Positions 31,680 through 64,000 of a DNA stretch of 64,000 nt are shown here, in pieces. The position numbers and the translations under genes were made by a program. This DNA is from Aquila chrysaetos chrysaetos. Taxonomy: Eukaryota > Chordata > Aves > Accipitriformes > Accipitridae. The notes beneath the pieces are model-generated. The model ran no database searches. It worked only from the letters and a program-made list of their open reading frames with translations, and had not been told where the DNA came from. The stretch's first letter is position 1. Each line of letters opens with the position of its first letter. Location: contig NC_044012.1 in assembly GCF_900496995.4 (NCBI RefSeq), positions 27,107,606 through 27,171,605 on the forward strand, read 5' to 3'.

Positions 31680-39555
<7,876 letters not shown>

Positions 39556-40728: not shown

Positions 40729-43700
40729 ATGGCGGCGCCCATGGAGCTGTTCTGCTGGGCCGGGGGCTGGGGGCTGCCCTCGGTGGACCCCGACTGCCTG
40801 GCCGTGCTGGTGAGCGGCGGTGGGGCCGGGGACGGGGACGGCGGCGGGGTCGGGGCCTGTGCGTCCCCCCCGCGGCCGAGCCCCCGCTCCCGCCGCCTCT
40901 CTCCTCTCCCGCAGACCTACGCGCGGTTCACGGGGGCTCCGCTGAAGGTGCACCGGGTCACCAGCCCCTGGAGGAGCCCCTCCGGTAAGGGCCCCCGCCG
41001 GGGTTACTGGCACCGCCCGGCAGCCGGGACTACCCGACCCTCCGCACCATCACCGCCTGCTGCCCCCCACCCTATCGCATCCCTTGCCCCATTGCACACC
41101 TCCCTGCCCCACTGCACACCCCCCTCACCCCATCGCACCCCCCCGCCCCATCACACCCCCTGCCCCATTGCACACCCCCCTTGCCCCATCACACCCCCCC
41201 TGCCCCATTGCAGGCTCCTGCCCCATTGCATGGCCCCATCGCACCCCCTGCCCCATTGCACACCCCCCTTGCCCCATTGCACCCCCTTGCCCCATTGTAC
41301 CCCCTTGCCCCATCGCACCCCCCTGCCCCATCGCACACCCCCCCACCCCATCGCTGCCCCCTGCCCCATCGCACACCCCCATCACACTCCCCTGCTCCAT
41401 TGCGCACCCCCCTCACACCATTGCACCCCCCTGCCCTATTGCATGCCCCCCTCACCCCGTTGCATCCCCCTCGTCCCGGCATGCTCCCCATGTCCCATCA
41501 CACACAGCTTTCATCCTCTCACCCACACCCCTTGCGTCACTGTGCCCCCCTGCCCCACCTTACATGCCCTCCACCCTGCCACATGCACCTCGCACTCTGC
41601 TTTACACCCCCTCACCCAAGTGTGGGGGCTGTTCGCCCCGGCACAGTGTGTCCCCCTACATCCGTGGCAGGGTGGCACCCTGGGCACTGCTGTCTGCAGC
41701 CACCCCTCTCCCTGCTCTCAGGGCGCCTGCCTGCGCTGAAGACACGGGATGAGGGCACCATCTCCAAAATGCAGCAGATCATAACTCACCTCAGGAAACA
41801 GGTAGGGGGGGGCAAGGGCACTCCTTGCTTCAGGCTAGGGTCTGGAGGGCACTGGAGTCCCCCTGGGAAGGAAGAAGCTTTGTCATGGTCACCCAAGAGG
41901 CATGGGCAGGACTTGCCACTTCCCTACCGGATCATGCCCCTTGCGTTTGCTTTGCAGAAGTATAATGCCGACTACGACCTCTCAGCTACGCAAGGTGCAG
42001 ACACGCTGGCCTTCGTGTCCCTGCTGGAAGAGAAACTGCTGCCAGTGCTGGTGAGTCTCCCCATCTCAGGGGGACACACGAGAAAGGTGGTCTTGCTAAG
42101 GACCAGATCTGCTCCCTGGAGCGATGCTGGGGGGCTCGGGTGTGAGCTCACCTGCAAGGAGAAGCAGAGAATGTTGCAGGCAACAAAATCCCAGGTGTCT
42201 GGAGCATCAGTAGCAGGGATCAGGGTGCCGGGGTTCTTGTGTGGCAGCAGTGGGTTGTGTAGCCAGGGCTGGGGTCTGGCATTGATCCTGGTGCTCCCTC
42301 AGACCCTCGCGGTCTCTGGGAGAGCCAGTCCTGTGCCAGACACGCGGCACCTGTGTGTGCGGCGCCGGGCACGGGCTCCGCGGTGCCCGCCATGGCAAAA
42401 GGCTGCGCTGGCTCCAGCCCCACCATGGCCTGGGCATGGATTTTTCTCTGCTGCAGATCCACACCTTCTGGGTGGACACAAAGAACTACGTGGAGCACAC
42501 GCGGAAGTGGTACACTGAAACCATTCCCTTCCCCCTGAACTTCTTCCTGCCCAACTGCATGCACAAGCAGCACCTGGAGCGGCTGCAGCTTATGTGGGGA
42601 GACAGCTACATGGAGGACGAGGAGAAGCTGGAGAAGGAGGTGAGGGGATGTGGTCTGGGCACGGCAGGTCCTCAGCTGGTGCCCAGAGGGACCCACACAA
42701 GGCCAAAATCTTAACTGGGGTCCGGGGCTCGCCCTGGCTGAGCACCCCCTTCCCACTCCCCTTAGCACTGTGGCAGTCTGCCGCGTGGCTGGGTGGGTGA
42801 CAACCCCCTATCCTTCTCCAGCTCTACCAGGATGCTCGGGAATGCCTGACACTCCTGTCCCAGCGCCTCGGCTCCCAGAAGTTTTTCTTCGGAGACTCGT
42901 AGGTGGCCATAGGGGGAAGGTGCTCTGGGGCCTGAGAGCCCCCCACACCCAGGCAGGACCGAGACCCCATGGACTGCAGGGAAGCTGCAGCCCATGCACG
43001 TCACTTGGGGGGTTGGACGGGCTCGCAGGGGACACAGCTGTCTGTGGCAGCACCGAGCGATGTGGGTGGCAGAATTAAGACTGCAGGAGCTGCCGCCAGC
43101 CCCGGCATCTCTTTCCCCATCTCTTGTTGGAACCAGTAGAGGTGCTCTGGGGTGGGGTCATCCTGCTTTCCCCCTCCTCACCATGGGGGCTGGAAGCAGA
43201 GAGCCTTCCCGAGGAGGAGGAGCTGCTTGCCGTTCCCTGAGACGCAGGGGGCTGGGGTGGCCAATGTGTCTGGGCGGCTTTGGGTGGGGACAGCCAGAGA
43301 GACCGTGACCCAGTCGCAGGTTTCTGTGCCCCAGGCCAGCCTCCCTTGACGCCTTTGTCTTCAGCCGCCTGGCGCCACTCCTGAAGGCAAAGCTGCCCAA
43401 CGGGAAACTGCAGCAGCACCTGAAGTCCCTGCAGAACCTGTGCAACTACTGCACCTCCATCCTCAGCCTCTACTTCCCCTGGGACGGAGGTGAGATGCGT
43501 CCCCCCACATTGTCCCATGGGCTCAGGGTGACTTGTCCTCCCTCCACACCCCCACTCTGCCCCCCCAGGTGAGCCCCCAGCCAGCGCCCCACGGGCTGCA
43601 GGTGCCGATGGCGGCGAGACAGAGGAGGACCCCCACAAACGACGGAACCAGCTGCTGTCGGTGCTGGTGGGGCTGGTGGCTATGCTGGGCTACGCCTTCC

Positions 43701-45855: not shown

Positions 45856-48479
45856 CTAGGCTGGCTGCTTCCACAGGAATGTCTGGATAGAGTCACCAGG
45901 AGCCATGGCCTCAATGAAGCCAACTTGTGGGTCAGAGATCCCGAAGAAAACGTCCACAGGGAAGCTGTGGGGATGCAAGAGGGGATGCAGGTCAGAGGGG
46001 GCAGCTAGGCTTTGAGCTGGGGCACAGGGCTGAGCTACTCACCGGTTCAAGACCACCAGGACGATGGCGCCGTCGGGGCGCAGGAAAGCCGAGTGCTCTA
46101 GCTCACACCGGTGGCACTTCTTGGACACAGCCAGCCCCACACGCTGGGAGCCCTCGGGGATGAACTTGCTGCACGGACAAGCAGGGCCTGAGTGCGGTGC
46201 CTGGGATGGCGGCTAGAGCTGGCAGCAGGAGCCAGCAGCCCCTTGCCAGCCACCCCCGGCCCCAACCCACCTGAAGTGTCCCAGGTGGTAGAACATGGGC
46301 TGCTTGTAGAAGACATCCTTGCTGCTGTCCACGATGATGGGGCTGTCCACGTAGTTCTTGCTCCAGTTGGGCCCCCCCTCCAGGTTCAGGGCCAGGTTCC
46401 AGTCAGTCCAGCCCGTCACGTAGTTGTTGAGGTTCTGCGGGGCAGGTGATGGTGCTGAGCCGTGGGTGGGCGCAGGGGGCGGCCGGCATGTCAACAGCCC
46501 CTGCCGAGCCCTACCGTCAGGATGCTGTGACTGTACTTGCTTCCACGGTCCCAGCCACCCAGCACCACCCTGGGCTCCCAGAAGTAGGAGCCGGTGGAGG
46601 CCTCTGTGGAGAGGAGGAAATAGTCTGGGAAGAGGTGATGGGTGATGGAGAGCGTGAGGTCGATGGGTGCCAGGAAGTCCAGGTACCAGTGGATGCCAAT
46701 GCCGCTGATGTAGCTGGCGGCCACAGGGTCTTTGAGAACCTGGCAGGAGAAAGGTATCACTGGTGCACAAGGCTGGGAGAGCTGCCGTGGGGCCAGGATA
46801 GCCACCATGGAGCCAGAAGAACCACCATGGGGACTCACCACCTGGGCCCAGTAGGGCAGCATCACCCTCTGGTCGTCCAGGATGATGAGCCGGACATCAC
46901 GGTGGGAGCTGTTGGCCAGCGCGGGGCCCAGGTCCCGTGCAATGAAGTCCCGCTGGTGCTCAGGGGAGAAGCCCAGGCACTGGAAGGGGTAGAAGACAAT
47001 CTCACCGGCTGTGGGCTCATTCCCCGCCGTCACTGCCCAGAAGGTCAAGTTGTGCTTAGCGTATTCATCCAGGAACCTGGGCGTGGGGGCAGTTGGTGAA
47101 TGGCCCCGGCACGGCAGCCCCAGCCCCACCTCCGGGTATGGTGACCCCGGTGCCCACTGCACTCCCACGGCCCCTCACCGGATGAAGTACTTGGCCCAGG
47201 CCTGGTGGTACTTGTCCCCAGGGCTGCCCTTCAGTGTCCCCCTCCCTGTCATCGCACCATTCGTCTTCATCCAGACCGGGGAGGTCCAGGGGCTGGCATA
47301 CAGTGACAACGGCCGCTTGGCCACCGCCTGGGCTGCCTGGAGGATGGGGATCTGGGGAGAACCGGGATGGCAGTGAGCTCTCCAAGTCTGCCCCAGCACT
47401 GGCATTGCAGGGGGCAGGATGAGTCCTCTCCCTCCCCATCAGCAGGAAGATGCTTCCCTTCCCCATCCCATCCCATCCCGTTCCACCCAGGCTGCAGCCG
47501 TGGCACCTCAGGCTCACCCTGTGGGACTCACCTTCATCCGCGTGTCCTCCTCTGTCAGGTTGAAGTGCTTCAGCTCGAAGTCGCCCTCCGCATCAGCATA
47601 GGTGTACAGGCGGATGGAGAAGTCGGTGCTGGCCATGGGGACACGCACAAGGTTGTACTCGATGCCTGGGGACAGAGTGGGCAGTGACGGGCATCCCTGG
47701 GGTGTATTCAGGGGATGCAGCCCCCTGGCTTCCAGCAGTCTCCCAGCCCTTTGGCATGAGTCTCAGCAGCCAACCCCCAGCAGGGGAGGCCAGACAGACT
47801 GGCTCTGCCACCCAGCAGCATCGCTCTGCCCTAGGCTCACCTTCCTCAGAGAAATAGGAGCGGAGCAGGTGGTTCTGGGCATCCTTGGACAGAGATTGGA
47901 TGTTGATGGCAGCTGAGTCTGTGACAGACCCACCAAACCCCTTCACCTTCTGGTACCGCTGCGCCATGTCCAGGGTGAGATGGAACTCTGCGGGGGACAA
48001 ACATCATCGCAGCTGCTGTGTACAGACAGACTCCGTTCCCTGGTGCATAGGCAAGCGTCCGGCCGTGGCGGGTACCTGGAGTCTCGGCGTTGCGCTGGAA
48101 GCTCCCCTCGCTGCGCTCCAGCCGCTTGCCGGCCTTGCTGCTCTCATACTTGACATAGGTGCCCAGGGCCGGCAGGACCACGGGGTCCAGCGTGTCGCAG
48201 TACGTGGCGCTGCAGGCGCACACCAGCGACCCGTGACCGAAGTCCTTGGCATTGCAGGGCCGGCCGCCTGCAGCAGGAGAGACTGGGCAGGCACAGAGGT
48301 CTGCGGCAGGAGCCGCACTCCAACCCACCATGGACACCGAACCCATGGCTTTGGTGCCCCAAACCACTGACCTCTGCAGCCCTCTGCTCGGGGACACGGT
48401 GCCAGCACTTACCTGCTGCTCGCAATGCTGCCTGCACCAGCAGGAGCCAGCCCAGGACGCCGGCGCACCCAGGCCCCAT
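45856..48479 (-). CDS. GBA1: Lysosomal acid glucosylceramidase, tandem copy A
   Basis: Ten coding exons on the minus strand, all in phase, 524 aa: 48413-48479, 48076-48267, 47841-47987, 47532-47665, 47179-47351, 46839-47076, 46515-46739, 46271-46434, 46043-46168, 45856-45964. After a signal peptide ([19 protein letters not shown]) the mature part begins GRPC and keeps the four N-terminal cysteines ([12 protein letters not shown]). The GH30 TIM barrel has the acid/base Glu in TAGNEPTAG (human E235) and the nucleophile Glu in STEASTGS (human E340), plus HWYLD and [10 protein letters not shown]. The N19-type sequon NATYC is SATYC here, so that site is lost; NLT and NSS sequons remain elsewhere. 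It ends FLWKQPA instead of the usual WRRQ-like end. It hydrolyses glucosylceramide in lysosomes if normally targeted. The poly(A) signal AATAAA is at 45675-45680. No CpG island or CLEAR site is visible upstream. Confidence 0.94.
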
Positions 48480-51040
48480 GGCACCTCTGCTGCAGCACGG
48501 CTTGGACAGATGCTGATGGCAAGCACCAGGGCTGGGAGCCGGGCGGCAGGTGTCAGCAACCAGCTCCTCTTGCCCTGTCCCAGCCCCACACGGGGACAGA
48601 GACACAGGGCAGGGACAGCCCCAGCATCCCCCTGCCTGGGAGCCTTGGGGACCACGAGCACCCCTCTGCCACTTTGCCTGCTCCCCACAGCCTCAGCCCA
48701 GCACTCACCTTCCCTCCTGCCTGCTGGTGCCCACGGACAGCTCTGGCTGCATCCCAGCCCAGGGTGCAGCCCCCTGGGTGTGTGCCACCCCGCACCCACC
48801 GGCATTCCCAGCCACCCACGCCAACTGTACCAGCAGCTTGGTTCGCTCCCATCACCTTCCTCCCACTCCTTCTCCCTCCTTGTTTGTCCCACGGCTGTGT
48901 CATGCCATGCCGTGCCATGCTGCTCCACACATCCCCCGTGCCTCCCAAGCCATGGCCAGGAGGAAACAGCGCCATGCTCTCAACCCCACAAGTGTGGCAG
49001 CAGGGACTTGCCCAGCCAGAGCTACTTGGGGCTCGATCCCCCGGTGCAGAGGGGTTCCGCATTTCCCTGCTCTCTGCAGGTGCTCCCACCCTGCCCTGTC
49101 CTTCCCACGATGCTGGGCAAGGAGCTTCTTGACAAGGGCATGGGAGGAGCCACCTCTGCGCCTGCTGCCCCTGGGCAGGGGGAGGTGAGGGTGGGATGGC
49201 ACCAGCTCGCTGCTCCTCGAGACTGTGCAGGATGGGGACCCAGGGCCAGGTGAGCTGTCCCACAGCCATCACCTCCTGCTCCCTGCCTGGGGCTGATGCC
49301 CAGTGCCATGGGCATGGCCTCATCATGGTCCTGCTGTCCAGGGCCATCCCCATCCCCACCAGCTGATGAAGCTGCTCTGGACCCAGAGTGCTCACCTGCT
49401 GCCAGAAAACCCTCTTGCTGCCTCTCTGCTGGGCGTGGGGCAGTGGGGCTGCAGGACCTGCTTTCTGGCTGTGCGTGGTAGGAGGTGACGGCATCTGGTG
49501 GAGCAGGAAAGGTGAGTCTGGGAGAGGACAGCTCATGGGACTTTCTGCATATGAAGAGAAACCCGTGGATGATTTTGCAACCTTGCTCCAATGAGAGCTT
49601 TCAACACTCACCGCAGCATTTGCAAAGCTCTCCTAAAACCTGTCCCAGTGGCCAGAGGGAAGCTGGCGGGGGGGCGGGGCAGGATGCCCACCAGCCCCCC
49701 AAGTGCCTCTATTGCCCCAGACAAGACCCCCTGGCTGCAGCCACCTCTGCCCAGCCCCAGCACAGTGCTCCCCTTGCAAAGAGCCCCACAAAAGCAGTCT
49801 GTTCTCCCCAGGACACCCTCAGGCAGGGGTAGGGCCGGTCATGCCCACCCAGGTGTCCCTGCTTGGGTCAGGCGGCTGCTGGGCCTCAAGTCCCACCTGG
49901 CAGCAGCTTGGCTTTGCCACAGGCACAGGCTTGCTGTCTGCAGCCAGTGCTGCAGCCATGACCCGTGCCCTGCTTATGGCTGCACCAGCAACTTTCCTGG
50001 CGTGGGCAGGGGTTCTGCCGAGGCTGGGGGCAACCCCACGAGCAGCCAGCCACGGCAAGGACGACTACACCCCACTCCTTGCTGCCCAGCTCAGAAGGAG
50101 ATGGGCGCAGCAGGAGGCTGCAGGTGCTGCCTGTCAGGGCCCCTGCTCACCCCTGCCGTGCGGCCGTGCCCCCCCACATCTGAGCCCCATGCCCGCAGCC
50201 AGGCTGGGTGGAGCAGGCTGCAGCAGTTTATCATCTGCAAAACAAGCCTGGGCTCCGCACCTTCTAATTTGGGATCCTTCCTAATTGCAGGCACCTGCCC
50301 ATCAGGAGAAACAGGAGTGGGGCAGAGCTACGGGAGAGGCAGTATCTGCCCACCCTGGCCCCGGAGTCCCCCTGATGTCGCTCATGCAGGTGGCCAGGGA
50401 GGCAGCCCCTCACCTGGGGACCGCTCTTCCTGCTGCGGCCAGAGCAAGGACCTCCCCAGCATCAGCTGTGGCCAGCAGGGACGATGGAGGTGATTCCTCC
50501 AGCCTCACCCTGGCCCCTCACACCCACCACTGAGGATGTTGCGTCCCTCAGTTTCCCCGTCAGCTTTTTGGCATGGAGGGAAGGTACAGCCCTGCGGCAG
50601 ATGCGTTTCCAGATGGCCAGGGAGCACAGAGCCCACCTGGAGGGGCTGTTCCAAAGCATTTCCCTGCACACACGTCCCTGAGCACTGCTGAACATCTGGG
50701 GGTGCAGGGGCTCCGTATGTGCCTTCCCTGCATGGCAGAGCTTTGATGTACTTTGAGAAGTGCAGGCAGCCCAGCTGCTGTTTGGGCTGGCGCTACCCAG
50801 GAACATTGATAAAAGCGCAGGAGAGGCAGATGTGCTCCATGAATGGGGCTGAGACGGAGCCCAGTGCTACCTTCATGCCACACTCCAAGAAAACAGTTGT
50901 TAAACCTCTTTTTTTTTTTTTTTTTTTTTCCTTTTTCCCCAACATCAGCAACTTCACAGCTCACGCACAAGGGGAAGTAGCCAAGGACTGCTCTGGCTTT
51001 CTCATTCCAGGACTTCAAAGATGCTGGTAACGTTCCTAAA
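48480..51040. other. Spacer between GBA1 copies A and B
   Basis: 5' flank of copy A merging into the 3' flank of copy B. Moderately GC-rich, poor in CpG compared with the flank of copy C. A T-run of about 22 at 50909-50930 is the longest A/T homopolymer in the window. No additional GBA exon fragment or other gene is recognised. A LINE remnant follows at 51040. Confidence 0.5.
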
Positions 51041-51330
51041 GGCTGGAGCAAGCAAATACTGTAACTGGTATTTAAAGAGAGCAAATAGGATGGCCAGGTA
51101 ATTGCGGGCTGCCAGCTCGATGTTGGCCACAGCCAGAATAGAGGGGAGTCTGTCCGGAGGCCACACCAGTGGAGGGTGGCTGGATGCAGCAAGCAGTGTG
51201 AGGTCTGGAGGGGATGGCATCAACTTAATTTGTCTGCGAGATTTGGTGGATGGGGACGCTGATGTAATTTACTCAGCCTTTTCTACAGTGTCTGCTCTAG
51301 TGCAGCAGGACATTTTGATTAAAAAAAAAA
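51040..51330 (+). mobile_element. Decayed CR1-type LINE fragment (reverse transcriptase region)
   Basis: One + strand frame reads INLICLRDLVDGDADVIY then SAFSTVSALVQQDILIKK, which lines up with the CR1 reverse-transcriptase stretch of the type TNLISFYD...LVDEGKAVDVVYLDFSKAFDTVSHSIL, with several residues lost between VIY and SAF. Just upstream, gtatttaaagagagcaaata and ggatggccaggtaattgcgg resemble the CR1 region encoding VFKKG..DPGNYRPVSL, in other frames. The piece is short, frameshifted and without a recognisable 3' end; an A-run follows at 51319-51332. CR1 is the dominant LINE of birds and reptiles. The match is from memory of the consensus. Confidence 0.6.
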
Positions 51331-51898
51331 AAGTAGGCTGGGGAAAACCAATGGCACATATGAAACGAATCAAGAGCTGGCAGGCGGCTGAGGCTCCAGC
51401 TGCAGCGATAAACAAGGCAGCCACACGCGGGCCATGGGGATGAAGCCCTCCGGGGGCACCCCTCGCCCTTTGCCGCCTCTCTGAGGAAAACCGAGCAATT
51501 TCCGAGAGCGTAAAGGAAACACTGACGGGACGATGCATACCGGAGGGAGCACGTCATGGCTTTACTTGGCACATGAGACACACACGAAGGTTTCAAGGGA
51601 GCCACGTGTGAAAGCGTGGTCCAGGAGGCAGAGCAGCAGGAGCTTTCAGGGGGCTGGGGGGTGCCAGGGAGGGAAGGGGGAGGCTGAGAAGCACCAGCAG
51701 CAGCAGCCCTGGTGAGACCCCAGTGCTGGGAGCACACACAGCCCCTCGCATGGGGGCAGGACCCCTGGTCCCTCTCGCACCCCCAGCAGCAGGTCACCAC
51801 CCTCTTCCACCATTGAAGAATGCTGGAAAGGGTGGGGGAAGACCTGACACACGGAGACCCCCAGCCACTTGGCACCATCCCCAGCACTGCCCTGGCCA

Positions 51899-54800
51899 TC
51901 ACTGCTGGCGCCACAGGTAGGTCTGGATGGAGTTGGCTGGAGCCACAGTCTTGATGAAACCAACGGCAGGGTCTCGGATCCCGAACGGCACGTCCCAGCC
52001 AAACCTGGGGGGGTAAGAGGGGCTGAGCAGGTTGTTACGGCCGGGGCTGAGCATCCCCTCGCCCGGGCTGACATGCTGACCTGTTAAGGACCACCAGGAC
52101 AAGAGCCCTGTCGGGGCGCAGGATGGCCACGTGCTCCAGCTGACAGGAGAGATATCGGTGGCTGATGTGTAGCCCCACACGCTGCGAGCCCTCGGGGATG
52201 AACTTGCTGCAGGGAGAGGAGCAGGAGAGGGATCATGCCCCCAGTCTCAGGCTGGTGGCAGCACCTGAGCCCCCCTGCCCCACCTGAAGTGCCCCAGGTG
52301 GTAGAACATGGGCTGCTTGTAGAAGACATCCTTGCTGCTGTCCACAATGACGGGGCTGTCCACGTAGTTCTTGACCCAGTTGGGGCCCCCCTCTAGGTCC
52401 AGGGCCAGGTTCCAGTCGGTCCAGCCAGCCACAAAGTGGTTCAGGACCTGAGCAGATGGGGAAGGGGCTGAGCAGGGCTGAGCCAGGCCCCCAGCCCCAG
52501 GCAGGCAGTGCCGGGGGGCCGTACCGTCAGGATGCTGTGGCTGTAATGGTCCCCTCGCTCCCAGCAGCCCAGGGACACAGAGAACCAGATGGTGAGGAAG
52601 CCACTGCAGGCCTCCGTGTAGAGGAGAAAATGGTCAGGGAAGAGCTTGTGGGTCGCCTCCAGGCTGCAGCTGGCTGGAACGAGGCCATCCAGGTACCAGT
52701 GAACCCCCACGCCAGCAACATAGCGGGCAGCGGTGGCATTGCCCAGGACCTGGAGGGGAGAAGAGGACATGCCTTGCACCAGGGCCACCAGTGCCCTGAG
52801 CCCCATGGGGATGGACGCACAGACCCCACATGCCAGCAGGGTCTTTTAGGGCCACCTGCCCCCACTCTTGTCCCCTCCTGCAGGACCGCAGGCTCCTGCG
52901 CTTGCAGCCACCTCCCTTCAGCACCTGCACCCCATGCAGCAAGCCACGAGCAACAACCCGACGTGGCTCCAGCACCCCACTGGGTACAGAGCAATGGGTG
53001 TGTGGGGACAGACGTGCCCCTCAGTGGGCTCCTCAACCCCTGCATGGCTCCTGCTGCTGCCTGGTCCTCTGCATCCTGCACCCCGCCCCTGAGTGATCTT
53101 GCATCACTGCCCTGCCTAGTCCCCAGCTGCTGCCAGTTCAAGGTGAGGGAGGGATGTGCTGTGCCCTCCCCTGCAGCTCCAGCCTCGCTTGAGGCAGGGG
53201 CAGGAGCATGTTTTCTTTTCTTTCCTTTTAGTTTAAGGTAATTCCCACAAACAGCTCTTCAGCATTGCGAAGGGTAAGCCAAATCAGCCAAAATTCTGCC
53301 TGGAGAAGGTGCTGGCATGCCAGCAGCACCTCTCCATGCCATGCTGCAGGAATCCAGGATGCAGATGCCACCTTCCATCCCTGCTTCAGCCAGGCACACG
53401 TGGAGGCGGTTGCTACTGAATTAGCCACCTTCAGCTCCTTCTCTGGCAGACCCAGTTTGCCTACTGCTCTGTCTAAGGCTCGGAGTGGCTGCTGGCTTAA
53501 TTTTCAGCTAAAACCCAAGGCTTGGGTGGGACATGGAGTGGAGGGAGAAGGAGCCAGACAGGGTGGCAGGCTTTGCTCTTCACCGCTTTGGCCCAGCGCA
53601 GGAGGTGGATGCGCTGGTCGTCCAGGATCATGAGCCGGGTGCGGTGGGGGCTGCGGGCCAGCGCAGGGCCCAGGTCACGGATGATGAAGTCCCGCTGCTG
53701 TGCAGCAGTGAAGGTGATGGTGGGGAACTGGGGGGGCGCGAGGAGTGCTGCAAGGGGCTCGTTCTGTGCCGTCACTGCCCAGAAGGTCAGGTTGTGTTTG
53801 GCGTATTCATCCAGGAACCTAGCATATGGAAGGGGGGCCAGCATCAGCCACACCTGCCCACCCTAACCCGCTCCCCTGTCCCCTCCAGCCCTCTGTGGTC
53901 CTCAAGCATCCCGGCCCTGGGGAACGATACTTGATGAAGTAGTTGGCCCAGGTCTTGTGGTACTTGTCCCCTGCCTGCCCCTTCAGCGTGCCCTTCCCAC
54001 GGATGTCCCCGTTACTCTTCATCCAGGCTGGGGAGGTCCAGGGGCTGGCATACAGTGACAGCGGCCGCCTGCTCATGGCTGAGGCTCGGTGCAGGAGGGG
54101 GATCTGCAGGAGGGGGCAGAGGGTCTGGCTCAGCTCCAGCTGCAGCCTGCCAAAACTACATGGCCCAGTGCAGGAGGAAGGGGAGCACTCAAGGCACCTC
54201 CACAGGGAATGGCAGCCTGTGAGCACCACCCCATGGCATGGTGCCCTGGCTCTGCACCCTGCCAGTGCCAGCCAGGATGTGCCAGGACATGCCCCAGAGG
54301 AGGTGCCAGCTCTCACAGGCTGTCCCCGCGCACCCTGCCACTGTGCATGGGGCTCAGCAGCACCTGGTCACCGGGGTCCTGGCACGCTTAGGAGCTCCGG
54401 CAGGAGAGGGGGACAAGGTGCCAATGGCAGTGGTTTCAGCCTCCCACCTTCATCTTCATGTCCTCCTCGGCCAGTCTGAAGTGCTTCAGCTCATAGTCGT
54501 GGGGGATGTCGTCGTAGCTGTAGGGGCGCATGGAGAAGTCGCTGCAAGCCATGGGGAGCCGGATGAGGTTGTACTCAATTCCTGCAGAGCAGGAAAGGCA
54601 TCAAGCAGTACCAGAGCAGGCACCCAGGTGATGGGCGTCCCTGCAGTGGGGACAGGCACAGCTGCCTCCAGGGACCCCAGGAGCCACCCCACGCTGCCAG
54701 TACCCTCACTGCTCACCACTCTCAGAGAAGTATGAGCGCAGCAGGTTGTCCTGGGCTGGCTGCGACAGCCCCAGGATGTTCAGGGCAGCAGCATCAGAGA

Positions 54801-55438
54801 GGGACCCGCCGAAGCCTTTCACGTGCTGGTACAGTGTGGAGATGTTGAGCGTCAGCAGCAGCTCTACGAGGGAGACCTCAGCTCAGTTTACAGTGCCTGG
54901 GGGTCCTGTGGTGGCACCCGCCACCTGCCCAGCTGCAGCAGGTACCTGGGGCATGCAGGCTGCGCTGGAAGCTCCCCTCGCTGCGCTCCAGCCGCTTGCC
55001 AGCCTTGCTGCTTTCATACTTGACGTAGGTGCCCAGGGCCGGCAGGACCACGGGGTCCAGCGTGTCACAGTACGTGGCGTTGCAGACACACACCATGGCA
55101 TCGCGGCCAAAGTACTTGGGGCTGCAGGGCCGGGCACCTAGGGGGCACAATCAGGGCAGGGGCAGCTGCCAGCTCAGGGACACGTCCCTGCCAGAGCTCT
55201 CCTGCCCGCCCTGCGTGCTCCCACTGCCCCCATGCTCCACACCCCATCACCTCCCGGGGCACCCCAGCTCCTGCACTGCCCCCGAGCTCCTGACCCTGTC
55301 CCAGGTCACCCCAGAACCCAAGCCACACTGTCCTATTGCCAGCCCTGTGATGTCCCTGCACTCACCTGCAGCCTGGGGCACCACCTGCAGCAGCAGCAGC
55401 AGCGGTAGCAGCCAGCCCAGAACACTGACAGCCCCCAT
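51899..55438 (-). CDS. GBA1: Lysosomal acid glucosylceramidase, tandem copy B (divergent active-site loop)
   Basis: Ten coding exons, in phase, 524 aa: 55366-55438, 54946-55137, 54717-54863, 54448-54581, 53931-54103, 53584-53818, 52525-52749, 52284-52447, 52081-52206, 51899-52004. The signal peptide has a long Leu core ([11 protein letters not shown]); the mature part begins [11 protein letters not shown]-terminal cysteines and the NATYC sequon are kept. Catalytic residues are present: TAQNEPLAA (acid/base) and TEACSG (nucleophile), also HWYLD and [10 protein letters not shown]. The loop after NEP, which in GBA1 reads like GYPFQCLGF, is [11 protein letters not shown] here, one residue shorter and without its Cys. 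The human N370 position (ITN-LLYH) is Val (LTV-LNHF). The N270-type sequon is lost (ARSPH). The C-terminus, YLWRQQ, is canonical. Exon 2 is nearly identical to copy C. Intron 6 (52750-53583) is the longest. Only a variant poly(A) signal AGTAAA (51561-51566) is seen. Confidence 0.93.
54926..55285 (-). repeat. Converted or recently duplicated tract, GBA1 copy B member
   Basis: This stretch (end of intron 2, all of exon 2, first part of intron 1) pairs with 61890-62249 of copy C. Exon 2 differs at one silent base in 192, and the intron part differs at about eight positions by eye. Flanking introns and exon 3 are clearly diverged. Confidence 0.85.
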
Positions 55439-58400
55439 GGCTCCAGTGGGTCCCGGGGAGCGGAGCCTGCAAGCAGGGGCACCCTCAGCCAAGGCAGGTG
55501 CAGGCAGGGATGAAGGGACAGGCTGTGCTCGCTGGCTGGATCTGCAGTCTCCTCTGCCCCTGCTCTTTCTTCTGCTGCTGGGGAGTTCCTGCTGCATGCT
55601 CTGTCCTCCCACCCACAAAGACCCTTGCCTTGCAGGAAGGTGAGGTGGGTCCATCCCTCCCAGGAACACACAGCTCACCAGCCTCTGTCCCAGCTGCTCC
55701 CTGACCTGCACTGCTGCCAGCCCTCCTCCTCCTCAGGCACCTCCAGCCTCCCCACCTCACCTTTATGGGGAGCCGCTGCAAGACCTCCCTCTGCAGCACA
55801 CCCTCTGCCACCCCCACAACTCCTCCTTGCTCTCCTCCCGGCCCATACCTACCACTGGTCTTGGACGCAGACCCTCATATGTCTCCTTGCCCCGGGATCT
55901 GGAGAACACCAGGTCTCCCTCACCTTCCACTGCCATGCAAGGGCAGCAGCCCCCAGAGAGGACAGACAGGGACATTGTGCTGGCAGCTCTGCCTACACAA
56001 AAGGCCCCACCAGCACAGGGAGGCACAGCATGGGGCAGTCCTGACAACCCACTGCAACGCCCTGAAGGAAGAGCTGATTTCTTTCTTTTGTCAGGCAGGG
56101 TCTGGATGAATCCCTGGAAGCACAGCAGAGCCCACGGGCAGGCTGTCCTGCTAATGAGCTCTAACAGCACCTCAGTCAATTTACCCCTGCCCATCACCCC
56201 AGTTCCCCCATTCCCCCCCTGCTGTGGCCATGCACCCAGTGTGGGGAGGGTCCAGGACCCCCAGGCAAGGATGGCAAACATGGCTGCACAGCTGGCACAG
56301 CAAAATGACCCACCAGGTGTGGCCACACAGGAGCTGGGACCGCTGCCATGCCCTGCCCAAGCCTTTTCATTGCTCGTCCCACCTCAGCACGCACCATGGA
56401 AGGCAGCAGCAGTAGCAGCAAGCTGGCAAGTGCCCCAGCTACTGCAAAGGCAGGGCTGTACTCTGGCCCCTGGCAATGGCAGCCAGGGCTGTGGTGTTGA
56501 GCCAGACCCACAGAGGGGAGCCCAGTGCCCCGACACCGGCTATGCCAGGAGCAGAGCTCTGCTCCTCTGAGCCTGGTGACAAATCACACCGGGAGTGCTC
56601 CCTGCTCCTCTGAGAGCAACCTTCCCAGTCCAAAGAGCCAGGACTGAACTGGGCCAGCTCACACAGACACTGCCTGGTCCTGGTCACATCACCCAGGACA
56701 TGCCCACTCCCATAGACACTCATGGACACACCCATCACTGTGGGGATACCCTCAGCATCTCTCTGCAGGGGTGGCCCGGGGGGACAGAGAGCGGCCAGCT
56801 CCCAGCCACTGCTCCACCTGCTTGAGAGCATCAAACACCAGGGCTCAGAGTTTCCCTCCACAGGGTTAAACTGCTCCATTAGCTCTCCCTCTCCGGGTGG
56901 AGCAGCACTTCATGACTAATTTTCTCCTTTTCTGGCATATCAGATGCAGCTGTGGGGCAATTCAATTCATCAAAGTTCCTCCTACCCTCCAGCACTGCCT
57001 GCTTGTAGTCCCACACCCCACGGGGTGCCTGGCAGCCCCCGGTCACAACTCAGGGGCAAACCGGCAGCCCTGGAAGGAAGCTCCTGGCCCCATCCCTCTG
57101 CCCCATGGGTCCTCCACCTTCAGCTGTGACTAACCTGCCAGCCGGCTGCTACACCCAGGCTAATAACCCCAACTTTGGGGAGGGGTTAATAGGGCAGCTC
57201 CTGCTGCTCCACAGTGATCACCTGCTTCCTGGCCCACTGCTGGCCACCTGGGGTGCCCTGTATACCCTTTTCCTCTCTGTTTCGGGATCCGGCTCTGTCT
57301 GCTGCCTTCCCAGCCACAGCTCCCGGGAGCAAAAACACTGTGGAGGCTGCTGGAGCTCATCCCTATCAACACCAGCTGATAAGAACTTCCTGCTGAGCAG
57401 GAAAAGTGAGACCCAGGGGAAGGGCAATGCCTTGGCACAGAGCTGGTGGCACTGGAGATGCTGGGCAGCCCCACCAAATCCTCTCAAAGCCACTTCTTGC
57501 TGGTGCTTCCAGCACGCAGGCATTTCTCACGTTGTTTGCAGACCTGCCCCGCAGCGGGCTGAGGAACCTGGGGGGGTAAATTTTGTCCCTTAGCCAGGCC
57601 AGTGGGGATGGGAGTCTGGGAACATGGAGCTGGGACTGAGCTGCCTTTATGGGGAATGCAACTCCGAAAACATCAGTGCCAAAGCGGGAGCCAGGCACGC
57701 AGACCCTCAGTGCAGCATCACTTCAGGCTCCAGAGTCCTGCCAGTCAGCTAGACCTCAGCCCTGAGCATGGGGAGACCCAGCCCTTGCTGGTGGCCACTG
57801 GTTCTAGGCAAGCTGGTGGGGGGTCCCATCCTCCCAGCTGCAGCAGCCACCAGCTGGTGCGCGCTCCAAAATGACATTGAAGGATTCACCCCCTCTTCAT
57901 TTAATCCAGAGCTAGTTGATCCTTCAGAGCCGAGCAGAGCACAGGGACAAGGGCACATGTCCCAGGATGATTCAGCATCCAACCATCAGCTTTTATTACC
58001 AGGGCCAGTAAAACATTAAAGGAAGCTGGTGAGTAACAACCTGGGGAAGAAGCAGCAGGTGGAGGAGCAGTCCTGCACCCGGGCACAGGCATACTGGAAG
58101 CGGGATCCTGGGAGCGGGGCTTGCTGTTGCTGTGATCCTGGAGAAATATTTCCCTCTTGTGGACAAACACAAACAGCCTCCAGGCAGGAGTGGCATGCTC
58201 CTGCCCCTCTGCACAGCCAGCTCTTCCCAGGACTCGCACACCCCCCCCCCCCAGTGTTGTGGAGTCCCAGGGCTCCTGCCCCAGGGCAGCATCCCAGTGG
58301 AACCATGGCACAGGATGTGCCAGCTTCTTAGGGTGACCCTGTCACACACTTTACCCACCGCCCCGGGCACTGCTGGAGCTGGCACTGGGCTGTGCCCAGC

Positions 58401-59395
58401 CCACGCAGCATCGCTGACAGCATCCCTGGGCCACATCCCGCATGCCTCAACCCGGCTGACCTGGATTGGCCCAGCAGCCCTGGCCTCCCTTCCTCACCCT
58501 ACCTGCAATTGTGACCTCCCTGCCCTAATCCTCTGCTCAGCACACCCTCCGAGCTCCCTCCCTCCTTCCTGGGTGTGCCCACACTCAGCGCCCACTCCCA
58601 GCCCATGCCTGCTTTGCTCAAGTTGCCCCAGCTCCGTGGCAGGTGCTGAGCCCCTGGTGCACCCTCACAGCCTCCTTGTTGCAGCAGGGACTGCTGTGCC
58701 CCATCCCTGTAGGGGACAGCACACCCCATGGCAGGGCCACTGCAGCCTGGCCAGCAACTTTCCCTGCAAAGCCCCAGGAGAAACTTGCAGATGCCCTGAC
58801 TCCATCCACAGCCAGCTCCTACCCCGAACCCACTGTGCTGCAATGCTCCTGGAGCTGGTTCTGCCTCCAGCCCTGACCTCAGGGAGCACCCTGCACCGGG
58901 TGAGATGTGATCCACACAGGCCCCCAGCCCAGCATTGGGCTGCGAGTGGCTCTAGCTTGGCAGGAAAAGCACAGAAAGCTGAAGCTTGGCTGCAGTCCCT
59001 GCCCACAGCTTCCACCAAGGCAGGTGTCCAGGTGCTTCACCCCCACTCCTGCTCCAGGACACAGAGCGTCGGCGTTGAGGGTAAATGCTGCCAGTTCCTA
59101 AACCTGCCTGCGAAGGCAGTAGGAGAGCACCTGGGCTCAGCGCACCCCTCTGCCAGGCAGCACAATACTTGGAACTGGGAGCAGACTGGTGCCTGGAACA
59201 CCTCCCCAGCAGGGTAAGCCCTGCTGTGAGTTGCAGGGGGGGAGAGCAGCAGGGGTTGAGGTGGGGACGGCAGCCACCCCAGGTGCTCTGGGCTGCTCTT
59301 GGGACCCCCGTGGGCTCTGTGCCCAGGTGGCACCCAAGAGCAGTGGAGGGACCTGGACATTTCTCTTCCAGCTGCAGACATAGAGGCAGCATCAG
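55439..59395. other. Spacer between GBA1 copies B and C
   Basis: About 4 kb without a recognised gene. An isolated AATAAA on the minus strand lies at about 57992-57997 (tttatt on +) without an exon I can assign. No CpG island stands at the 5' end of copy B. I see no extra GBA exon remnant and no similarity to the A-B spacer by eye. Confidence 0.5.
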
Positions 59396-59666
59396 CATTT
59401 AATGTCAGAGCAGCAGAAAACAGCAGTCACAGCCTGTGCGATCTCCATCCCAAGGGCACCGGTGCTCCCGGCCCTCCTGCATGCACACGGTGCTCCCTGG
59501 CCCAGCTCATTCCTCCAGCTCACCCAAGTGCTCGGCTCTGTCGTGGTGCAGACAGTGGTGAGCCGCCTCCTCCACGCTCCCAGGCCCGAGCCCATGGGCA
59601 TCGTGGGGCTGCTCTCCTGGCCTGGCTCAGTTTGGCCCTTGGCCAGCCATGGGTGTCCCAGCCCTG

Positions 59667-62348
59667 TCACTGCCGCTGCCACAGGTAGGTCTGGATGGAG
59701 CTGGCCGGAGCCACAGCTGCGATGAGGCCAACCGTATCAGCCAGCCCAAAGGTGATGTTCTGTGGGGACCTGGAGGGCAAGGAGCAGCAGGGTCAGACCT
59801 GCAGCAGCTCCCGAGCACCAGCAGTGCGCAAGGCTCAGCAGGACAGGTCCCATGCTCGTGGGTTGGGCTGCATTGCTCACCGGTTCAGAACAACCACCAC
59901 CACGGCACCATCGGGGCGCAGGAAAGCCGTGTACTCCAGGTCCATCTTCTTGGACTCTTTGGAGGCGATGAGCCCCACACGCTGGGAGCCCTCAGGGATG
60001 AACTTACTGCAAGGGCATGAGCAAGAGGCAACCGCAGGAAGGGAGTCAGACCCCAGAAAAGCTCCTCTCCCAACAAACCTCCCCTGCTCCCCTCCTGACA
60101 AGCTGCTACTGCAACCATGGAGCTGGAGCCCAGGCAGCTGAGAGTGTGTCAGGGGGCCTCGACCCACCTGAAGTGCCCCAGGTGGTAGAACATGGGCTGC
60201 TTGTAGAAGATGCCTTCACTGGTGTCCACAATGATGGGGCTGTCTACGTAGTTCTTGACCCAGTTGGGGCCCCCCTCCAGGTCCAGGGCCAGGTTCCAGT
60301 CGGTCCAGCCGGCCACAAAGTGGTTCAGGTTCTGCAATAGGACAGCCCAGATGTCTGCCCAAGGAGTGGGGTGCTGATGGGAGAGGAAGCGTGCCAGCAG
60401 CTCTCTCCAGGGCCCACTGCACAGGATGATGCGGGGGCCTCACCATCAGGATGCTGTGGCTGTACTGGTTCCCCCGCTCCCAGCAGCCCAGAATCACATC
60501 CCTCTCCCAGAAATGGGCCCCGATGCATGCCTCTGTGGCCAGGATGAAGTAGTCAGGGAAGAGCTCATGAGTGGGCACCACCGTGTCCTGTATGGGACCA
60601 ATGAAGTCCAGGTACCAGTGGATACCGATGCCATGGACATAGCGAGCTGCCTCTTCATCCTCCAGGACCTGGCAGGAAAAAAAGTTGGCCACCACCAGGT
60701 CCCAGAGGGCAGAGAGCCAGCCAGCCCTCGTGCTGTGGGATGCAGGGGCCAAGCCCTCTGCAGGGATGTGCTGCGCCAGTGGGACTGGGACTTTGCCCCA
60801 ACTTGCCACGCTGGTGGACCCCACGCTGCACTCACCACTTTGGCCCAGTGCGGGAGGTGGAGCCGGTTGTCATCCAGGATGATGAGCTGGATGTGGTGGT
60901 GGGAGCTGTTGGCTAGCACAGGGCCCAGGTCCCGTGCGATGAAGTCCCGCTGCTGCTCGGCTGTGAAGCCCAGGCACTGGAAGGGGTAGTTGTTGATCAG
61001 CCCGGCTGAAGGCTCATTCTCCGCCGTCACTGCCCAGAAGGAGAGGTTGTGCTTGGCGTATTCATCTAGGAACCTGGGCACAGGGGAGAGGGGTGATCCA
61101 TGGGGTCTCAGCCACTGCCGAGGATCCCCTGGGTATCTCCCTGCACCTCTTGCCCCAGGCATTCCTTACCGTACAAAGTAGTTGGCCCAGGTCTTGTGGT
61201 ACTTGTCCCCTGCCTGCCCCTTCAGCGTTCCCTTCCCCACAAAGGACTCACTGGTCTTCATCCAGGTCGGGGAGGTCCAGGGGCTGGCGTACAGTGACAG
61301 CGGCCGCTTGCTCATGGCCAAGGCTCGGTGCAGGAGGGGGATCTGCAGGAGGGGGCAGAGGGGCTGAGCCCCTGCACCCCCCCTACCCCCCATCCTACCC
61401 CGCTCCCTCCCACCGCTCGCCTTCAGCTTTGTGTCCTCGTCTCGCAGGCTGAAGTGGGCGAGCTCATAGTCAAAGGGAACATCGTCATAGGTGTAGGCAT
61501 GGAGAGAGAAGTCGCAGCTGGCCATAGGGAGTCGGACGAGGTTGTACTCCAGCCCTGCCAGGCACAGGGGGGTAGGACAGGCAGAGGTGGGCAGTGGGAC
61601 AGGAGGTCTCCAAGCCCTGCCAGTGTCCAGGCAGCGGCCTGCAGGGTCCCTGTTACCATCTCTCCTGCCTCCCCCAATGTGCTCACCTTCCTCAGAGAAG
61701 TACGAGCGCAGCAGGTGATCCTGGGCTGTTTCTGGCAGAGAAAAGATGTTCATGGCAGCTGCGTCAGTAATGGAGCCACCAAAACCCTTCACCTTCTGGT
61801 ACCGCTGCGTCGTGTCCACAGCCAGGACGAGATCTGCAGGGAGGGAAGTTAGTGTGATGGTGGGCTGCAGGCAGGGTCCGGCCCCTCTCTGCCCAGCTGC
61901 AGCAGGTACCTGGGGCATGCAGGCTGCGCTGGAAGCTCCCCTCGCTGCGCTCCAGCCGCTTGCCAGCCTTGCTGCTTTCATACTTGACGTAGGTGCCCAG
62001 GGCCGGCAGGACCACGGGGTCCAGCGTGTCACAGTACGTGGCGTTGCAGACACACACCATGGCATCACGGCCAAAGTACTTGGGGCTGCAGGGCCGGGCA
62101 CCTGGGGGGTACGGCCAGGGCAGGGGCAGCTGCCAGCTCAGGGACGCATCCCTGCCAGAGCTCTCCTGCCCGCCCTGCGTGCTCCCACTGCCCCCATGCT
62201 CCACACCCCATCACCTCCCGGGGCACCCCAGCTCCTGCGCTGCCCCTGCCCCCCCAGACACCCCCACCCCGCTGCCCCCGTGCTCACCTGTGGCCCGGTG
62301 CACGGCCTGCAGCAGCAGCAGCCAGCCCAGGGCACCAGCAGCCCCCAT
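59667..62348 (-). CDS. GBA1: Lysosomal acid glucosylceramidase, tandem copy C (most canonical)
   Basis: Ten coding exons, in phase, 520 aa: 62288-62348, 61910-62101, 61687-61833, 61421-61554, 61170-61342, 60836-61073, 60444-60668, 60168-60331, 59881-60006, 59667-59769. Signal peptide [16 protein letters not shown] resembles human TGLLLLQAV; the mature part begins [10 protein letters not shown] with all four N-terminal cysteines and NATYC. The active site is close to mammals: [16 protein letters not shown] (acid/base), [21 protein letters not shown] (nucleophile), [15 protein letters not shown]. The human Q284 position is Asn (LDDNR). The C-terminus is YLWQRQ. Intron 4 (61343-61420) begins GC instead of GT and is 78 nt with no stop in frame, so a 26-residue insertion by retention is possible. 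The poly(A) signal is probably ATTAAA (59398-59403). The upstream CpG island and CLEAR-like site suggest this is the housekeeping, TFEB-responsive gene. Confidence 0.95.
61890..62249 (-). repeat. Converted or recently duplicated tract, GBA1 copy C member
   Basis: Partner of 54926-55285 in copy B. Shared landmarks include tgcccagctgcagcaggtac at the exon 2 donor side and, in intron 1, ctgccagagctctcctgccc and ccatgctccacaccccatca. Copy A lacks the intron part. Confidence 0.85.
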
Positions 62349-62868
62349 TGCCCCTCCACGTCCCCCGGCAGGTCCCGGGGTGCAGGGCCCGTGAGCAGCA
62401 GCAGCGGCGGCGGCACCGTCAAAGCCTCCCGTCACACTGGCACCCCGAGCCGGTCCTGGCCGCGCTTGTTGCCAGGCCACCCCCTCAGCACCGGGCCCGC
62501 TGCAGGCCTCGCCTTTAAGGGCACCCGGGCTTCCCGTTCCGCCCACGCCCGGGGCGCCGGTGCAGGACCAGGAGCGGCACCAGCACTGGGCGGGCCGCGC
62601 CCGCGCCCGCTGTCTTGCCCAACCGGGGCCCGGCCCTACCCCCGCGACGGTAACGGGGCCGGCGATCTCGGGGGAGCCTCACGGGCGGCGGGGCCGTTCA
62701 CCCCCCCCACCCCCGGTACCGGGAGTCCCCGGGAGGCGCAGGTGGGCACTGGCGGTCGCCCCGCTTAGACAACGCGCTGCGTCCCCGCTCCGCCTGCCCC
62801 CGCGACCAGCGCCGGCACCGGCCGGGGCCGCCTCCGAAGACCCAAGCGGCCGCTGCCCCGCCCCGCCG

Positions 62869-62878
62869 GTCACGTGAT
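62869..62878. promoter_or_regulatory. CLEAR-like E-box upstream of GBA1 copy C
   Basis: gtcacgtgat matches the TFEB/TFE3 CLEAR consensus GTCACGTGAC in nine of ten bases. It lies about 520 bp upstream of the copy C ATG, inside a CpG-rich region (about 62380-62950), and only about 100 bp from the ENTREP3 poly(A) signal. Human GBA1 is a known CLEAR-network gene. I find no CACGTG in the kilobase upstream of copies A or B. Confidence 0.6.
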
Positions 62879-62973
62879 CGATCAGCTGACCAGCCGCACC
62901 GCACCGCACCGCACCGCCCCACCCCTTCCCCCGGCGCCACCGGCCCCACGGCCCCGGGCGGGCGGCGACCACA

Positions 62974-63601
62974 TTTATTCGGTCTCTAGCGAGGGGCAGC
63001 GCGGCTGCGAGCGCCGCGGGACCGGCCCCGCAACGCGTCCCCGGGCGCAGCCGGGCGCGGGCCGTGGCGGGACCGGGCGGGAGACAGGCACGGTCAGGGC
63101 AAGGGACAGGGGACCGGGCACGGCCGGTGTGGGGGGGCGGGACAGGGCACAGGCACAGCTGGCGCAGGGGACAGGCACAGCCAGCAGAGAGGACAGGCAC
63201 GGCTGGCACAGGGGACAGGCATGGCCAGCGCAGGGGGGGGACAGGGTGGGGGACAGGCACAGCCATCCCAGGGTAGAGGCACAGCCGGCACAGGGGACAG
63301 GGCAGGGGACAGACACGGCCATCCCAGGGCACAGGCACGGCTGGCACAGGGGACAGAGTAGGGGGGGGACAGGCATGGCCGTTTCAGCCCCCCAGCAGAT
63401 ACCCCAGGGGACCAGCCCCTTGTCCTGGCCCCACCTGGGGAAGGGGCCCAGAAGAGGCCCCAGGGCAGCAGTGCAGGACCCAGCCCCTCCAGCAGCAGCA
63501 ATGTCCAAGCAATGTCCGAGGGCCCTGGCCCAGAGCAGGACCCTCCCTCTCTGCACCAGGAGGGTCCCCACGGAGGCTGTGTCACAGGTGGGGGTGCGTC
63601 G
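62974..63601 (-). other. ENTREP3: ENTREP3 3' UTR with poly(A) signal and minisatellite
   Basis: Downstream of the ENTREP3 stop codon (63602-63604) the minus strand runs about 630 bp to AATAAA at 62974-62979. Most of 63080-63370 is a minisatellite. Assignment as 3' UTR follows from the uninterrupted path to the first canonical poly(A) signal. Confidence 0.6.
63080..63372. repeat. Minisatellite in the ENTREP3 3' UTR
   Basis: Repeated words ggcacaggggacaggcac and acggc(c/t)ggc(g/a)caggggacagg form imperfect units of about 20-22 bp and compound units of about 40 bp, at least nine copies. Purine-rich on +. Confidence 0.75.
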
Positions 63602-64000
63602 TCAGAGAACGCTCTCCTTGCAGGTCCCACTGAGGCTCCGCGGGTGGCTGCGCTCCAGCCGGCGGGTGGACAGGAGCCGTCGCAGGGACGAGGTGGAGCT
63701 CAGATCCCCGCAGCTCTGCAGGTGGATGCTTTCGTGGGGCTGCTCCGCTCCTGGCCAGGCACTCCAGGGAACCTGCAACCCCATGGGGACAAGCTGCAGC
63801 TGCACGGACGGCACCCCTAACCACAGCACCGTGCCCTCACCTGCCCTGCCAGACAGCCGGTGCACCAGGGGCAGCCGGGCAGGCACGCAGGGCAGGAGGA
63901 CAGAGGTGGCGAGGGATGGCGGAAGTGTGCATCACACGCATATGCTGTCATTAAGGATGGGCTCGTTCATACTGGGGCCTCCCGGGGCTGCGCAAGGTCT
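63602..64000 (-). CDS. ENTREP3: ENTREP3 (FAM189B), last two coding exons, partial
   Basis: The last exon (63602-63739) encodes PHESIHLQSCGDLSSTSSLR followed by RLLSTRRLERSHPRSLSGTC and KESVL before TGA. The preceding exon is cut by the window end: 63938-64000 reads ...PGGPSMNEPILNDSIC with a plausible GTGTGA donor at 63937. In human ENTREP3/FAM189B lies next to GBA1 on the same strand, as here; the family has MS4A-like membrane segments and a cytosolic tail with PY motifs that recruits HECT ubiquitin ligases. The tail seen here is only the extreme C-terminus. Identification rests on synteny and partial recollection of the SCGDLSS tail; the penultimate exon border is tentative. Confidence 0.65.

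Follow-up and report, generated by a model that had tools for sequence, protein, structure and literature searches.

Three Tandem GBA1-Type Genes in the Golden Eagle, Probably an Old Sauropsid Triplet

The Locus and Its Three Genes

GBA1 is the Gaucher gene and a leading Parkinson risk gene, and mammals have one functional copy of it. A stretch of 64,000 nucleotides of golden eagle DNA (Aquila chrysaetos chrysaetos, assembly GCF_900496995.4, contig NC_044012.1, positions 27,107,606 to 27,171,605; hereafter the window) holds three GBA1-type genes in tandem, named here A, B and C, which lie on the minus strand between window positions 45856 and 62348 and have ten coding exons each in spliced models derived from the window DNA. 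A preliminary description, made from the same letters, had proposed three complete ten-exon GBA1 genes on one strand at this place, and the starts and stops of the models agree with it to the base. The open proteins of 520-524 amino acids (aa), the conserved exon phases and the two catalytic glutamates (E235 and E340) that it reported were likewise recovered.

The exons of copy A (GBA1-A, 59667..62348, minus strand, 520 aa) were taken directly from the DNA and run, from high to low positions, through 62288-62348, 61910-62101, 61687-61833, 61421-61554, 61170-61342, 60836-61073, 60444-60668, 60168-60331, 59881-60006 and 59667-59769. All 520 residues are found unchanged in the public A. chrysaetos entry P0001. 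Copies B and C were fitted by spliced alignment to A. Copy B (GBA1-B, 51899..55438, minus strand, 524 aa) has its exons at 55366-55438, 54946-55137, 54717-54863, 54448-54581, 53931-54103, 53584-53818, 52525-52749, 52284-52447, 52081-52206 and 51899-52004, and copy C (GBA1-C, 45856..48479, minus strand, 524 aa), which matches the Buteo entry P0053 at 98%, at 48413-48479, 48076-48267, 47841-47987, 47532-47665, 47179-47351, 46839-47076, 46515-46739, 46271-46434, 46043-46168 and 45856-45964. The aligned parts of A and B equal golden eagle public entries letter for letter; the one corresponding to copy B, P0121, lacks a stretch of 41 aa and is longer at its N-terminus.

Exons 2-5 and 7-9 are equal in length in the three genes (192, 147, 134, 173, 225, 164 and 126 bases), exon 6 measures 238, 235 and 238 bases in A, B and C, respectively, and the exon phases are the same in all. 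Each copy has a single stop codon, at its end, and a hydrophobic N-terminus that by eye would be a signal peptide. The match of copy A to the solved lysosomal acid glucosylceramidase (GCase) has an E-value of 7.9e-237, which puts a chance match out of the question. A tblastn search of the window gave 53 hits with E <= 1e-3, all of them within the three genes, and thus no sign of a fourth copy or of a further fragment. Intron 6 of copy B (52750-53583) is 834 bases long, that of A 167 and that of C 99.

Splice sites are GT-AG throughout the triplet with the sole exception of the exon 4 donor of copy A, which is GC. Intron 4 of this copy (61343..61420, minus strand, donor AAG/GCGAGC, acceptor AG) comprises 78 bases that are open and in frame, and P0001, a public model of 546 aa, retains it as 26 extra residues. 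Because copies B and C and the solved GCase do without these 26 residues, GC-AG splicing seems the better reading of copy A, rather than intron retention.

Homologues, Trees and the Age of the Copies

Three homologue searches covered the best 120 of 1819, 1520 and 1201 matches, respectively, and together supplied 187 different proteins from birds, reptiles, mammals, amphibians and fish, assigned to clades as 55 A, 61 B, 46 C and 25 of other vertebrates. For the first tree 96 public rows were hand-picked from the 187, and the dropping of 15 partial or suspect ones led to a set of 84 rows, in which the golden eagle stands for two bird A and two bird B rows (the window copy and one public entry in each case). 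A second set of 83 rows lacks the chimeric entry P0036, which was still present in the first approximately unbiased (AU) tests and in the residue tables (bird B, n=14).

Over exons 3-10 the proteins of the three copies are 66-69% identical to one another, and each copy has orthologues in birds and lizards, those of A and C extending to turtles and crocodilians. The copies are therefore no recent redundancy, in agreement with the preliminary description. In the 84-row tree, built without exon 2, C unites birds, crocodilians, turtles, tuatara and squamates (support 100/100) and B unites birds with Pogona, Eublepharis and Gekko (100/99), while A is split into birds plus alligator (100/96), squamates (100/100) and turtles (100/99), the latter standing beside A+B. 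The 83-row tree excludes exons 2, 5 and 8, in which A and B show their greatest similarity, and in it A forms one clade of 27 rows (96/90), B one of 16 rows (100/99) and C one of 25 rows (100/99). The three are united (99/98) and stand beside 7 mammals within the amniotes (100/95). In both trees A, B and C are nested in the vertebrate GBA1 tree, and in the 83-row tree birds and lizards occur in each of the three clades. The AU test rejected lizard A+B as a group of its own (p-AU 2.7e-5 with 84 rows, 0.017 with 83 rows), as well as an archosaur A+B in which bird and alligator A join bird B (4.4e-5 and 0.009). From the trees and these rejections it follows that the triplet most likely split before lizards and birds parted, so that the duplication would not be specific to birds.

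Among the matches listed, the crocodilian and turtle proteins (n=15) comprise 5 A, 10 C and no B, which may reflect loss or non-listing of B. Proteins of two clades whose contigs are equal in length, and which presumably lie on one contig, were present in at least 11 genera among the matches listed (Alligator, Pelodiscus, Varanus, Hemicordylus, Erythrolamprus, Gekko kuhli, Buteo, Haliaeetus, Melanerpes, Passer and Gallus) and were taken as linked, and Athene has orthologues of A, B and C. The turtle A-type rows P0033, P0034, P0038 and P0040 join C in trees that contain exon 2, whereas the omission of exons 2, 5 and 8 places them in A; in Pelodiscus exon 2 of A and C is identical at 57/63 residues.

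Catalytic Residues and Copy-Specific Changes

All three copies score above the Pfam cut-offs for Glyco_hydro_30 (495-554 bits) and Glyco_hydro_30C (42-57 bits). In residue numbers of the human mature GCase, transferred by way of the cat row (offset 39) and verified at E235 and E340, the catalytic glutamates E235 and E340 and residues R120, D127, W179, N234, H311, Y313, W381 and N396 are present in the window copies A, B and C. Across the 84 rows R120, D127, N234, E235, H311, W312, Y313, E340, W381 and D399 are invariant; W179 is absent solely from two gapped bird B rows, and a single lizard C row has another residue in place of N396. None of the copies shows the broken frame or lost catalytic residues of a pseudogene, and the pairwise ratio of nonsynonymous to synonymous substitution rates (dN/dS) among them is 0.32-0.42. 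A model of copy B, which has about 60% identity to human GCase (PDB 1ogs and others), predicts an intact fold.

Copy B departs from the others at the mouth of the active site. The published loops 1-5 of GCase comprise residues 237-248, 283-288, 311-319, 345-349 and 394-399 (PMC3226326). Outside B, 235 sites reach a conservation of at least 90%; 17 of them are shifted in B, 8 in these loops, where 14 such sites are kept (p 2.3e-5). The loop shifts include Y244, Q247, F316, F347, W348 and E349, and loops 1, 2 and 4 are remodelled. The loop aromatics Y244, F316, F347 and W348, which are present in window A and C, are P, G, T and I in B; they are partly absent from fish and amphibians and do not define the family. 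Bird and lizard B rows share Q247P (17/17), C248T (17/17; 3 lizard A rows have it too) and D298N (16/17), L94 is kept in 16/17 rows, and position 370 is V in all 14 bird B rows and D, T or N in lizards. In loop 2 (345-347) of bird B, residue 345 is F and 346 mostly L, as in most amphibian and fish rows, and part of this loop may be ancestral rather than new.

In copy A, Q284 of loop 5 is N in 27/27 rows and L324V occurs in 93%, and position 409 is G in 10/10 bird rows, N in alligator and D in the 16/16 lizard and turtle rows. In human GCase D409 forms a salt bridge to K181 of the transporter LIMP-2, which the authors of one study regard as seemingly indispensable (PMC11955523). This aspartate, which does not define the family, is missing from copy A and present in window B and C, and it is kept in 15/17 B rows (12/14 of the bird ones) and in 9/10 bird C rows. 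Copy C is marked by C342S (25/25 rows) and V394S (23/25), and in birds by L94Q (10/10) within the LIMP-2 core. The N19 glycosylation sequon is kept in 4/25 C rows, 23/27 A rows and 16/17 B rows.

Gene Conversion of Exon 2

A tract of 358 bases is 97.5% identical between A (61889..62246, minus strand, repeat family D1) and B (54925..55282, minus strand). On the A side it runs from within intron 1 across exon 2 and 21 bases into intron 2. Exon 2 itself agrees at 191/192 bases, against 70-92% in the other exons, and the synonymous distance (dS) between A and B is 0.02 in exon 2 and 0.56 in the remainder. The extension of the near-identity into introns 1 and 2 marks it as copying, not constraint.

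In the seven species whose A-B pair was examined the exon 2 proteins of the two copies agree at 63/63 residues in the eagle, 42/43 in Athene, 50/50 in Gallus, 51/51 in Eudromia and 56/63 in Melanerpes; in the lizards Gekko japonicus (34/63) and Pogona (32/63) they are not alike. Eagle A and Gallus A agree at 47/63. This suggests that exon 2 has been converted repeatedly between A and B in birds, although the public models may borrow exons, as do P0006 and P0021 of crows, which join exons of A and C. Chimeric bird models seen in the set are P0006, P0021, P0036, P0009 and P0011 (A+C in crows, A+B in a macaw and the rifleman, B+C in a stork), and in Haliaeetus names of the "isoform X2/X5" type span different genes.

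5' Flanks and Hints of Expression

The 600 bases before copy A (62349..62948) have a GC content of 0.78 and a CpG observed/expected ratio of 0.88, against ratios of 0.12 and 0.28 in the 600 bases before B and C. This contrast, drawn from the bases directly before the coding starts, fits a housekeeping promoter for A and a restricted use of B and C. At 62869..62878 of the plus strand lies GTCACGTGAT, one mismatch from the CLEAR element, a weak match of which 1.25 are expected by chance in the window.

Among the matches listed, the sauropsid entries that resemble transcripts (contigs labelled "lgn", 1651-2077 bases for the whole open frame) are of type A only (P0002, P0012 and P0086). A "GBA1-like" gene is reported among the most upregulated in hypomelanistic gecko embryos (PMC12774848), and may be one of the paralogues described here.

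Interpretation

The data are probably best explained by an ancient tandem GBA1 triplet that still occupies the ancestral site, with the catalytic machinery kept in each copy and the roles divided among them. The preliminary description had suggested a functional division from differences in loop, glycosylation and promoter features. Differences between the clades were found in the loops, at one glycosylation site and in the 5' flanks, and a division of function among A, B and C is likely, as far as sequences can tell. The same description had missed the homogenisation of exon 2 between A and B, the GC donor of copy A and the fact that the duplication is not bird-specific.

According to this explanation all three copies would enter the endoplasmic reticulum and act as retaining beta-glucosidases in the lysosome or in another acidic or extracellular place. 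Copy A, with its CpG-rich 5' flank and unchanged loop aromatics, would be the broadly used glucosylceramidase; in birds it would no longer rely on the D409 salt bridge with LIMP-2, being sorted via the remaining interface or by another route. Copy B retains the glucose-binding floor and mostly D409 and L94, but the aromatic rim above the aglycone side is gone; its substrate would most likely be another glucoside, or else glucosylceramide with an altered requirement for saposin C. Copy C keeps the aromatic rim and mostly D409, carries C342S beside the nucleophile and, in birds, L94Q, and mostly lacks the N19 sequon; it would most likely be a glucosylceramidase of altered stability or sorting and of restricted expression. 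Conversion of exon 2 would preserve the likeness of A and B in that part, with the remainder staying apart. Lizards and birds parted about 280 million years ago. A fuller scheme, in which a three-way split of about that age has been kept, with A as a housekeeping form that in birds, without the salt bridge, arrives in lysosomes via another route or a reshaped interface, B as a LIMP-2-competent form with a rebuilt aglycone mouth and a new substrate, C as a regulated third form, and exon 2 copied between A and B more than once, in different lineages of birds, can be offered only tentatively and is less likely than not.

Several points weigh against the explanation preferred here. Copy A reaches its 520 aa only through GC-AG splicing. 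Entries that resemble transcripts are missing among the 61 B and 46 C proteins listed, and the restriction of such entries to A argues, weakly, against equal expression of the copies. The A+B node is weak (86/53 in the 83-row tree), the groups for the AU tests were chosen after the trees had been seen, and the conversion of exon 2, together with the high identity of exons 5 and 8, blurs the dating. Some of the shifts are not exclusive: N284 of copy A is also present in 2/8 amphibian and fish rows, S342 of copy C in 4/10 bird A rows, and D409 is missing from 2/14 bird B and 1/10 bird C rows. Nine of the 17 B shifts fall outside the loops. The LIMP-2 interface varies widely outside mammals, since none of the window copies keeps I406 or R395 and many clades show variation at A95 and I130, so that a reading based on a single position may mislead, and the loss of D409 may be compensated elsewhere. 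Finally, N370V in B and D409G in A fall on human disease sites, and A or B could be weak enzymes.

Another possibility is that A is the one working enzyme, with B and C decaying or non-catalytic. The CpG-rich flank and the sauropsid transcript-like entries listed are both confined to A, and B has lost the rim aromatics and, in birds, N370, all of which would suit such a reading. Against this, the frames of B and C are open in the window, their catalytic residues are kept across lizards and birds, the pairwise dN/dS is 0.32-0.42 and the predicted fold of B is intact, which makes it distinctly unlikely. A triplet that had arisen recently, or through faulty assembly, in a single bird would account for the nearly identical exon 2 tract of A and B, but hardly for the protein divergence of exons 3-10, for the orthologues of all three copies in other birds such as Athene, or for the genera in which proteins of two clades are presumably on one contig; it is scarcely credible.

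The triplet could also be older than the amniotes, with B (or more) having split before mammals and sauropsids parted and having been lost in mammals. A clade of A, C and mammals that leaves B outside the amniotes is not rejected (p-AU 0.22), another point against our explanation, and F345, L346 and a residue other than F at 347 are found both in B and in the majority of the 8 rows from amphibians and fish. The best trees nevertheless unite A, B and C apart from the mammals (100/98; 99/98), and B is unlike all 8 of these rows at Q247, D298 (in 16/17 B rows) and G250; a pre-amniote origin is considered unlikely. Independent duplications in birds and lizards, with long branches or conversion producing an apparent sharing, might find room in the fact that there are just 3 lizard B rows, one of which (Pogona) was flagged as long-branched. 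Yet the AU test rejects both the lizard and the archosaur A+B groupings, and the B rows of birds and lizards have the changes at 247, 248 and 298 in common, so that such parallel origins are very improbable.

The copies resemble human GBA1 (GCase) in the GH30 plus beta-sandwich fold, the catalytic residues and the neighbouring genes, and differ from it in loop, LIMP-2-interface and N19 changes that are unseen in the 7 mammal rows. Human GBAP1 is a recent, broken tandem copy beside GBA1, with gene conversion; tandem arrangement and conversion are alike in the eagle, but its copies are intact and old. GBA2 and GBA3 also hydrolyse glucosides and belong to families different from that of the GH30 copies; except for a match of copy A to GH59 that stays below the threshold, GH30 is the one family that A, B and C match. 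Entries named "lysosomal acid glucosylceramidase(-like)" in birds and reptiles are orthologues of A, B or C that bear no clade in their names, the copies being annotated singly in databases, and no account of a sauropsid GBA1 triplet was found in the titles and abstract openings of the matches listed from the open-licence literature. Three versions of one enzyme with the same catalytic floor and a different mouth, N370, D409 and N19 glycan amount to a natural experiment that bears on the activation, sorting and stabilisation of GCase. Data on "GBA1" in birds and reptiles may mix paralogues, because certain public models combine exons from more than one copy.

Neighbouring Genes

Family scans of the flanks covered 7 of the 18 frame-blocks of 1-45000 and 3 of the 6 frames of 62400-64000, and genes may have been missed. 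No family match was obtained on the far side of the triplet in the three minus-strand frames of 62400-64000. Toward the triplet, the Pfam matches in the frame-blocks covered follow the order Ephrin, MtN3_slv, DPM3, Keratin_assoc, fn3, SEA, COMP with TSP_3, and Tom37 with GST_C_6, which can be read as EFNA1, SLC50A1, DPM3, KRTCAP2, TRIM46, MUC1, THBS3 and MTX1. This is the gene order beside human GBA1. The position of the triplet beside MTX1 and THBS3 is orthologous to that of GBA1, and the triplet would occupy the ancestral GBA1 site, with the neighbours of the mammalian gene.

Nearest to copy C are pieces of MTX1 (metaxin 1; 42451..43461, plus strand), namely Tom37 at 42451-42555 and GST_C_6 at 43321-43461, followed outward by THBS3-type pieces (34516..36702, minus strand), with COMP at 36643-36702 and TSP_3 at 35126-35197 and 34516-34587, both genes being putatively named from Pfam domains and position. 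Further out, a SEA piece (27217-27327, minus strand) and an fn3 piece (20098-20325, plus strand), each just below its Pfam cut-off, were read by position as bird MUC1 and TRIM46, respectively.
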